Origin: Betaproteobacteria bacterium
GTDB taxonomy: Bacteria; Pseudomonadota; Gammaproteobacteria; Burkholderiales; SG8-41
DNA length: 33,823 nucleotides
Assembly (NCBI GenBank): GCA_028291945.1
Contig: JAQGNH010000410.1
Span: 1 to 33,823 of the forward strand
Direction of reading: 5' to 3'
Below, piece after piece: positions 5,044 through 6,322 of the stretch; position 1 is the stretch's first letter; each line of letters starts with the position of its first letter. The notes under the pieces were generated by a model. The model was not told the DNA's origin and did not search any database. It worked only from the letters and a program-made list of their open reading frames with translations. A program made the position numbers and the translations under genes.

Positions 5044-6225
5044 TCAGATCACCCCTCGCGCAATCTGGTCGCGTTCGATCGCTTCGAACAGGGCCTGGAA
5101 ATTACCTTCGCCGAATCCCTCGTTGCCTTTGCGCTGGATGATCTCAAAGAATATGGGACCGATCACGGTCTCGGTGAAGATCTGCAGGAGCAGATCGCCG
5201 GGCCTGCCGTCGATCAGAACCTGGTTGTGCTCCAACCGCGAGATGTCCTCACAATGGCGTGGAATGCGGCCCTCGATCGCATCGTAATAGGTGCGAGGCG
5301 TCCGCATAAAGCTCACGCCGGTTGTTCTCAGCGCCTCGACGCTCGCATGGATGTCGCCCGTCGCCAGAGCGATGTGCTGTATGCCTTCGCCATGATATGC
5401 GTCGAGATACTCTTCGACTTGCGATTTCCTGTCGGTCGGCTCGTTGATGGGAATACGTATCTTCCCGCATGGGCTCACGAGCGCGCGCGAGCGCAAGCCG
5501 GTCTTCTCACCGTGGATGTCGAAGTGGCGGATTTCCCGGAACCCGAAAAGGTGCTCATAGAAGCGAGCCCAGTGATCCATCCTGCCCTGATGCACGTTGT
5601 GCGTGATGTGATCGATGTGCGTGAGCCCCACTCCCCAATTCACAGAAGGCACGCCCGTACTATCCGAAGGAAGGGAGGTTACGGAGGGAAACCTTGGGTT
5701 TCCCTCTGTTCGTTCTCCGCCTCCTCCCGGGAGGGAGGGAAACCTTGGGTTTCCCTCTGTTCCATTAGCGGCTGCCGAGCGCAGCGAGGACGAGACGGCG
5801 ACGAAGTCGACGTCGTAGATCGAACGTGTGCCATACCGGTCTACGAAATAGATAAGGCTGCCGCCGATGCCCCGGATCGCAGGAATGTTGAGCTCCATCG
5901 GCCCGATTTGCGCCTTATGGGGCTTTGCTCCAAGATCGATCGCGCGCTTGTAAGCGCGCGCAGCATCCTTGACGCGAATGGCGAACGCGCAGACGGATGG
6001 ACCGTGCACACGTGCGAACGACTGGGCGAAGCTGTCCGGCTCGTGATTCAGCACGAAGTTGATATCGCCCTGGCGGTACAGCATCACCTTCTTGGAACGG
6101 TGACGCGCGACCGGCGCGAAGCCCATGCTCTCGAAGAGCGCGGCCAGCGCTGCCGTGTCCGGGGCGGCGTACTCAATGAACTCGAACCCGTCCGTGCCCA
6201 TCGGGTTCATGTGCGGGGCGTCCAT
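5044..6225 (-). CDS. hpd: 4-hydroxyphenylpyruvate dioxygenase with an in-frame repeat insertion in the linker
   Basis: 393 residues; family members are usually about 355-360. It is a non-haem Fe(II) enzyme converting 4-hydroxyphenylpyruvate plus O2 to homogentisate and CO2 in tyrosine catabolism. N-terminal domain is about 10-145 and C-terminal catalytic domain about 198-393. Expected iron ligands are present: H206 (IDHITHN), H284 (GIQHIAL) and E361 (GPIFFEIIQ), plus the C-terminal FGEGNFQALFEAIERDQ helix, so activity is probably kept. Between IYDVDFV (137-142) and GVGLTHIDH (198-206) lies a long low-complexity stretch, 143-197, containing TEGNPRFPS twice (156-164, 173-181). In related enzymes I recall only about a dozen residues here. 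ATG 6225 was chosen; ATGs at codons 6 and 9 are alternatives, and no strong ribosome binding site is visible. A dnaJ terminator lies just upstream and no clear promoter follows it. Confidence 0.93.
   Translation of the reverse strand: MDAPHMNPMGTDGFEFIEYAAPDTAALAALFESMGFAPVARHRSKKVMLYRQGDINFVLNHEPDSFAQSFARVHGPSVCAFAIRVKDAARAYKRAIDLGAKPHKAQIGPMELNIPAIRGIGGSLIYFVDRYGTRSIYDVDFVAVSSSLRSAAANGTEGNPRFPSLPGGGGERTEGNPRFPSVTSLPSDSTGVPSVNWGVGLTHIDHITHNVHQGRMDHWARFYEHLFGFREIRHFDIHGEKTGLRSRALVSPCGKIRIPINEPTDRKSQVEEYLDAYHGEGIQHIALATGDIHASVEALRTTGVSFMRTPRTYYDAIEGRIPRHCEDISRLEHNQVLIDGRPGDLLLQIFTETVIGPIFFEIIQRKGNEGFGEGNFQALFEAIERDQIARGVI
5683..5762. repeat. Tandem palindromic repeat inside hpd (two 29-bp units, 51-bp period)
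   Basis: Two identical 29-bp units lie at 5683-5711 and 5734-5762, 51 bp (17 codons) apart. Each contains a perfect hairpin with 10-bp arms GAGGGAAACC and GGTTTCCCTC around TTG (5684-5706 and 5735-5757). Between them CCTCCCGGGAGG (5723-5734) is another 12-bp perfect palindrome. Read in the hpd frame, each unit gives TEGNPRFPS. The core has no stop codon in any of the six frames. A weaker third trace may sit at about 5642-5655 (VPSV in hpd). This resembles REP/MITE-like or Rickettsia-palindromic-element-like coding insertions in behaviour; no known family is claimed. Confidence 0.9.
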
Positions 6226-6261
6226 TGGATTCGAAGTCTGCTCCGGTCCGGCACAAATGCA

Positions 6262-6291
6262 AAGGCCCGGCGTTCGTTTCCGCCGGGCCTT
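6262..6291 (-). terminator. Intrinsic terminator after dnaJ
   Basis: Perfect 11-bp stem AAGGCCCGGCG (6262-6272) / CGCCGGGCCTT (6281-6291) with an 8-nt loop, 31 nt beyond the dnaJ stop in the minus direction. On the minus strand it is followed by a short T-rich run (TTTGCATTTG). It separates the heat-shock genes from hpd. Confidence 0.8.
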
Positions 6292-6322
6292 CTTAACATT
6301 ACCTGCCGTTTACCGCTGCTGC

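Follow-up and report, generated by a model that had tools for sequence, protein, structure and literature searches.

The question raised by this locus is how a gene for 4-hydroxyphenylpyruvate dioxygenase (HPPD) came to encode a long interdomain linker that contains the same peptide twice, and what this segment means for the enzyme. The window, that is, the whole stretch of 33,823 nucleotides analyzed here, comes from a 7.1-Mb genome in 587 contigs (G000), which was compared with three congeners (G001, G002, and G003; four species in all). The features needed for the argument are the following.

5044..6225, minus strand: hpd, 4-hydroxyphenylpyruvate dioxygenase (HPPD), 393 aa (open reading frame; TIGR01263; PF14696 and PF00903; Foldseek match to 1cjx)
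5641..5790, minus strand: surplus linker compared with P. fluorescens HPPD (residues 146-195; phmmer alignment to 1cjx; pLDDT < 50 at 151-161 and 163-196)
5683..5711, minus strand: copy A of a 29-nt palindromic repeat, whose hairpin core lies at 5684-5706
5734..5762, minus strand: copy B of this 29-nt repeat, with its hairpin core at 5735-5757 and 100% sequence identity to copy A
5707..5734, minus strand: inter-copy linker containing CTCCCGGGAGG
5664..5722, minus strand: gene-downstream copy of the hairpin element, complete with head, hairpin, and tail (model R1, 87.3 bits, E 1.3e-18)
5727..5773, minus strand: second element copy, gene-upstream (model R1, 36.4 bits, E 3.1e-5)
6226..6322, no strand: dnaJ-hpd intergenic stretch, with no element here and one in the same stretch of G002 and G003

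The open reading frame at 5044-6225 bears out the 393-residue HPPD proposed in the initial annotation. Its product scores 394.3 bits with TIGR01263 (cut-off, 277), matches PF14696 and the glyoxalase domain (PF00903), and has as its best Foldseek match 1cjx, the HPPD of P. fluorescens (TM 0.80/0.89), to which it also aligns in sequence (phmmer, E 3.4e-123). Residues H206, H284, and E361, which we take to be the iron ligands and which had been described as intact, lie in conserved columns of an alignment of 88 HPPD sequences: the first is H in 88 of 88, and the second and third are H and E, respectively, in 87 of 88, the other sequence having a gap. With the family model matched above its cut-off and the metal-ligand columns conserved, the protein is an HPPD.

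In the phmmer alignment to 1cjx, residues 6-145 pair with 5-145 and residues 196-393 with 151-354, so that the surplus comprises residues 146-195, 45 aa net; the segment thus lies between the two domains, as first proposed, and is slightly larger than the roughly 40 residues then estimated. The stretch from IYDVDF to IDH spans 71 residues in this HPPD. Among 88 sequences (the window HPPD, 7 from genomes found by the HPPD search, and 80 named loci, the best 80 of at least 592 confirmed homologues), its length is 26 in 59 sequences, 27 in 9, 30 in 8, 25 in 5, 24 in 2, 31 in 2, 45 in 2, and 71 in 1. Both 45-residue linkers belong to the congeners G001 and G002, and that of G003 has 24 residues. 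All 84 HPPDs examined from outside the genus have the short linker (24-31 residues), and none of the 84 has a linker as long as this one; a long linker as the normal condition in relatives was thereby ruled out.

Within the surplus, TEGNPRFPS occupies residues 156-164 and 173-181, confirming the two occurrences in a 17-residue register noted at the outset. At the DNA level, this corresponds to a perfect 29-nt palindromic repeat at 5683-5711 and 5734-5762, arranged head to tail with a period of 51 nt, each copy containing a 10-bp hairpin. When up to 3 mismatches are allowed, the palindrome pattern has four matches in the window (two places, each on both strands) versus 0.04 expected, a number reached by 0 of 100 shuffles; as RNA, the repeat stretch has an unusually good predicted fold (z -4.14). 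The complete element at 5664..5722, itself among the 23 sequences from which model R1 was built, is the best R1 match in G000 and lies where G002 has its single copy; the copy at 5727..5773 matches more weakly because the inter-copy linker stands in for the usual tail. Six other tandem intervals, in the fetched G000 loci, contain CTCCGGGAGG and have periods of 48-50 nt versus 51 in hpd, whose inter-copy linker has one extra C; since 48 is also in frame, this extra C is only suggestive.

The repeat in hpd belongs to a dispersed family. The element is about 59 nt long: its head ends in AACGAACA, its hairpin (GAGGGAAACC/GGTTTCCCTC) has 10-13 bp, and its tail is close to CGTAACCTCCCTTCCTTCGG. At a tolerance of up to 2 mismatches, the palindrome pattern was found in G000 49 times in the forward and 54 times in the reverse direction versus 1 and 2 for the reversed control; since the pattern is almost self-complementary, many places are counted on both strands. 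The HPPD protein search also met translated copies of the element elsewhere in G000-G003. The covariance model R1 (59 positions, 23 aligned copies) was used to search 40 genomes, this one and 39 relatives, and with 138 candidates scored per genome, it matched at least 122 times in G000, 125 in G001, 139 in G002, and 100 in G003; with 150 candidates scored, G000 has at least 123 matches. The 20 other genomes of the same family have 0-2 matches each, G033, from another family of the order, has 34, and the order's other 15 genomes have 0. The G033 copy examined has the same layout as the genus element and a stem richer in G/C; given these related copies, the family is enriched in the genus and not exclusive to it. 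Related hairpins with a similar head and tail are also seen at L129:1510-1560 (G033) and L128:1500-1560 (G015, a member of the same family, where they are sparse).

Across 125 aligned matches (E up to 1e-6, from 94 hand-picked sources), 97.8% of the hairpin cells pair, and 7 of 11 pairs have changed on both sides. The cells changed on both sides number 94 versus a shuffled mean of 19.0, with 0 of 500 shuffles as high and 2-21 in slid controls; these counts are inflated by relatedness among the copies, and the sequences had been aligned to the model itself, but the margin is large. No Rfam match at the gathering score was found in 8 sources (79,051 bases), by which a known structured RNA was ruled out.

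After removal of one reverse-strand duplicate (C416:5306-5334; 123 to 122), the 122 matches in G000 fall into 87 loci, 58 single, 23 double, and 6 triple, and adjacent copies are arranged +/- in 14 cases (93-109 nt apart), ++ in 9, -- in 11, and -/+ in 1. Genomic context was assigned by a codon-usage classifier rather than from annotation; when applied to 240-nt windows from the genes used to train it, the classifier chose the right frame in 97.4%. Of the 80 classifiable loci, 19 lie between convergent, 0 between divergent, and 10 between codirectional frames, 3 are embedded in an open coding frame, 36 have one side coding, 11 have neither, and 1 has both flanks in the same frame with a stop; the remaining 7 are at contig edges. 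The same classifier, applied to 667 evenly spaced control points drawn from the window and loci L262, L264, and L265, gave 255 embedded, 18 convergent, and 13 divergent. Sampled loci of the congeners, which include the hpd region by choice and from which duplicates were removed by sequence, gave 2 of 47 embedded, 18 convergent, and 1 divergent in G002 (40 regions and the hpd contig); 1 of 20 embedded, 3 convergent, 0 divergent, and 2 at edges in G001 (20 regions and the hpd contig); and 1 of 44 embedded, 17 convergent, 1 divergent, and 1 at an edge in G003 (50 of 100 matches, one locus from the HPPD protein search, and the hpd region). Compared with the control points, the element is therefore rarer inside genes and favors convergent 3' ends. 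Loci whose two flanks code in one frame with a stop between them (1 in G000, 4 in G002, 3 in G001, and 6 in G003: L321, L323, L324, L345, L347, L360, L364, L145, L189, L269, L270, L275, L285, and L206) are either tandem genes or genes broken by the element. A weak match within a 598-aa frame, L306, appears from the open frames to lie between two genes.

At the hpd site, the four species form a graded series: G003 has no element (IYDVDFKAIAPAQQPGVGL), which provides the insert-free allele sought among relatives; G002 has one copy (RTEGNPRFPS); G001 has one whose palindrome has decayed with the reading frame kept; and G000 has two. HPPD identities are 81.0-83.1% between G000 and its congeners versus 84.0-85.5% among G001-G003, and the HPPD tree leaves the order of the four species unsettled; since, in addition, G002 and G003 are most alike in HPPD, the element may equally well have been lost from G003 or gained after G003 diverged. 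Elements also lie between hpd and the neighboring gene, presumably dnaJ from its sequence, in G002 and G003 (L262:3857-3917 and L264:8246-8304) and not in this window, a difference adjoining the same gene.

Three further genes carry the element in frame, and element-free orthologues were found for each. In lhr, recognized by its WH3_Lhr and WH4_Lhr domains and scoring below the cut-off of the full-length NCBIfam helicase model, RTEGNPRFPS is located at the same place in G000 and G002, and other fillers occupy the same variable linker in G001 and G003. The lhr linker of G002 and G003 (L287, L289) also contains PHPDP- and HPHPVP-type fillers, which look like translations of another repeat, so that this linker may collect several repeat families. 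A Cj0069-family gene (NF033816, 333 bits versus a cut-off of 150) carries EQRETEGFPLLPPFLQG in G000 and is empty in G001 and G003, the difference from G001 being 60 nt net; no match to this gene was found in G002, and by eye, the filled/empty pair shows no clean target-site duplication, which a MITE would have in addition to terminal inverted repeats. An error-prone DNA polymerase gene (NF004225, 1174.5 bits versus 939) carries the element antisense in G003 (KGKEVSEENPGFPP) and is empty in G000 and G002; no close orthologue was found in G001, only a 31% match. Three readings are used, one in hpd and lhr, a second in the Cj0069-family gene, and an antisense one in the polymerase gene, indicating that the element is not tied to one frame or strand; a coding copy must be free of stops and have a length that is a multiple of three.

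With regard to the enzyme, an AlphaFold2 model of the hpd product (52 sequences) has a mean pLDDT of 83.5, and the only segments of at least 3 residues below 50 are 151-161 and 163-196, with most of the rest at 80-97 by block mean. The structure prediction called for at the outset thus places the insert as a predicted disordered stretch between the two HPPD domains. The rest of hpd is under purifying selection: outside the linker, dN/dS is 0.103-0.160 in all six species pairs (328 codons), and on 186 codons picked around conserved motifs, a choice that biases the value low, it is 0.056-0.083. The insert does not appear to break the enzyme, and as a disordered loop, the peptide would be tolerated by the enzyme, for which it is probably neutral. 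The G000 HPPD core is the most divergent of the four, which could reflect slightly relaxed constraint. The initial annotation had proposed that a repeat expanded inside an enzyme gene at a permissive site; the in-frame and tolerated character of the insert stands with these results, and the expansion is not merely local, the repeat being a copy of a dispersed family.

Taken together, hpd very probably carries within its reading frame two head-to-tail copies of a dispersed REP-like hairpin element, tolerated in a disordered linker. A non-autonomous hairpin repeat would spread, presumably by transposition, mostly outside coding frames and often at 3' ends; it would occasionally land in genes and persist there only in frame, in loops or interdomain linkers. 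One copy may thus have entered the flexible interdomain linker of HPPD in a stop-free frame, read as ..RTEGNPRFPS.., and would since have stayed single in G002, lost its palindrome by mutation in G001, and become a tandem pair in G000. The second copy would stem either from another insertion or from duplication in place.

The last point bears on a local origin, in which slippage made a tandem repeat in the hpd linker that is unconnected with the dispersed repeats. The two copies are identical at 29 of 29 positions and lie head to tail with a period of 51, so that the second could indeed be a local duplication of the first; however, the same 59-nt element, head and tail included, has at least 100 matches in each genome of the genus, other loci also have tandem copies joined by almost the same linker, and slippage may explain copy two but not copy one. 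We consider this origin very improbable, and a purely local tandem repeat was ruled out by the dispersed family. An artefact of assembly or binning is more improbable still: this fragmented genome has many contigs, and identical repeats can be miscounted, but this site also carries the element in G002 (a single copy) and in G001 (a decayed one), hpd and its neighbors are syntenic in G002 and G003, and other genes show in-frame copies too.

We likewise regard it as improbable that the linker was selected for a function, with an mRNA hairpin or a peptide that modulates HPPD folding or expression and is kept for that reason. The open frame kept in three species, the extra C that gives 51 nt instead of 48-50, and the unusual RNA folding of the stretch would fit such a role; on the other hand, the palindrome was lost in G001 with the frame kept, G003 does without the segment, the segment is predicted to be disordered, and any tolerated insert needs a frame-preserving length, which 48 nt would also provide. 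A tolerated insertion of the dispersed element accordingly remains the preferred reading.

A REP mobilised by a RAYT (a REPtron) would have copies flanking a Y1_Tnp gene. How the element moves was approached through the Y1_Tnp genes, of which there are five across G000, G002, and G003 and none in G001 (86% complete). Three of the five loci (L119, L120, and L121) were examined for repeats, and all hold repeats of other sequence; the repeats around these RAYT-like Y1_Tnp genes are ATCGGGGACAGACCCCGAT (L119, G002:C467), GTGGACCTGACCCCAAT-type (L120, G000:C63), and AACCAGGGTCTGACCCCG (L121, G003:C18). When all five loci were scanned for the hairpin element, one convincing copy was observed, about 0.9 kb away at L121 (G003), and no mobiliser of the element was found among the Y1_Tnp loci of G000-G003; a link between RAYT (Y1_Tnp) and the element is possible. 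In the general sense, the element is REP-like, being short, high-copy, palindromic, and mostly outside coding frames, with a convergent preference. The GTAG tag (with GGAG alone counted of the degenerate forms) is present at no offset in more than 2 of 73 (G000), 0 of 10 (G001), 1 of 10 (G002), and 0 of 32 (G003) aligned elements, and the exact CGTC tag occurs in at most one element per genome at each of the four commonest offsets. Membership in the exact GTAG- or CGTC-tagged REP superfamilies was therefore rejected, as neither tag is conserved next to the hairpin.

The four species offer a stepwise view of how an intergenic hairpin becomes part of a protein, with none, one, decayed, and doubled states at one site, and the filled and element-free orthologues of the three further genes extend the hpd series. 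More broadly, and only tentatively, we suggest that these untagged, mobile hairpins, old enough to have a related form in another family of the order (G033), might move by machinery other than the known RAYTs. In this genus they might repeatedly supply enzymes and genome-maintenance proteins with disordered linkers that stay in frame, and their coding copy number may still be changing between species. As HPPD structures are plentiful, tolerance of the 45-residue linker is directly testable.

REPINs and BIMEs are inverted repeat pairs at fixed spacing. The 14 adjacent +/- pairs at 93-109 nt versus a single -/+ pair in G000 would fit this arrangement, but 20 adjacent pairs are direct, 58 of 87 loci are single copies, and the Y1_Tnp loci examined yielded no clear cognate RAYT. 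Another HPPD with a repeat-like insert was noticed in the MAG Betaproteobacteria AHI6 (L042:3388-3450; SLSAPGEGVAPSPLGEGRGEG, DNA CCCTCTCCCCTGGGAGAGGG); it shares with the present case a repeat-like insert in HPPD and differs in having another repeat in another loop, just before IYDVDF, which makes this a second HPPD loop tolerating repeats.

The closest published parallels are in a study of REPs that we take to be Di Nocera et al. 2013 (PMC3733652). Its main text describes, in several species, REPs of the GTAG and CGTC superfamilies that lie inside genes, among them DnaE2 and further repair genes, a placement predominantly between convergent or unidirectional genes with a minority in frame inside genes, and REP clusters of Thauera and R. 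conorii that encode 43-82 aa; it also discusses insertion of REPs in flexible linkers and suggests that repair genes are struck by REPs above chance (PMC3733652). As far as that text goes, the present family agrees with GTAG/CGTC REPs in its short high-copy hairpins, compensatory stem changes, single, inverted-pair, and grouped copies, convergent or unidirectional placement, few in-frame copies, and an error-prone polymerase among the targets, but it differs in having neither exact tag, a longer conserved unit (about 59 nt), and in-frame copies also in hpd, lhr, and a Cj0069-family gene (PMC3733652). An error-prone DNA polymerase is thus among the targets in an independent group, which bears on the repair-gene suggestion in the main text of PMC3733652, and four genes are too few to test it. 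The closest described class is that of REP-like families without a conserved terminal motif, reported there in M. tuberculosis, D. radiodurans, Bordetellae, Brucellae, and Cyanobacteria (PMC3733652); any of these families, the Bordetella one above all, might be related to the present element.

The initial annotation had taken its precedent from Rickettsia. The Rickettsia palindromic elements (RPEs), about 150 bp long and with nearly half of the first-reported ones in ORFs (PMC10969869), are the classic case but not the sole one, since intragenic REPs are published (main text of PMC3733652). Compared by insertion mode alone, the two systems share palindromic repeats that are in frame and tolerated in unrelated proteins; unlike in RPEs, the unit here has a length of about 59 nt, and coding copies account for 3 of 80 classifiable G000 loci. 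In agreement with the earlier remark that no HPPD case was known, a targeted literature search, judged by titles and abstract openings, found no repeat insertion in HPPD among the papers listed, and the main text of PMC3733652 mentions neither HPPD nor Lhr. As both intragenic REPs and untagged REP-like families are already described in that main text, the hpd case is a known kind of event; what is new, as far as seen, is the element family, the graded hpd series, and the additional target genes.
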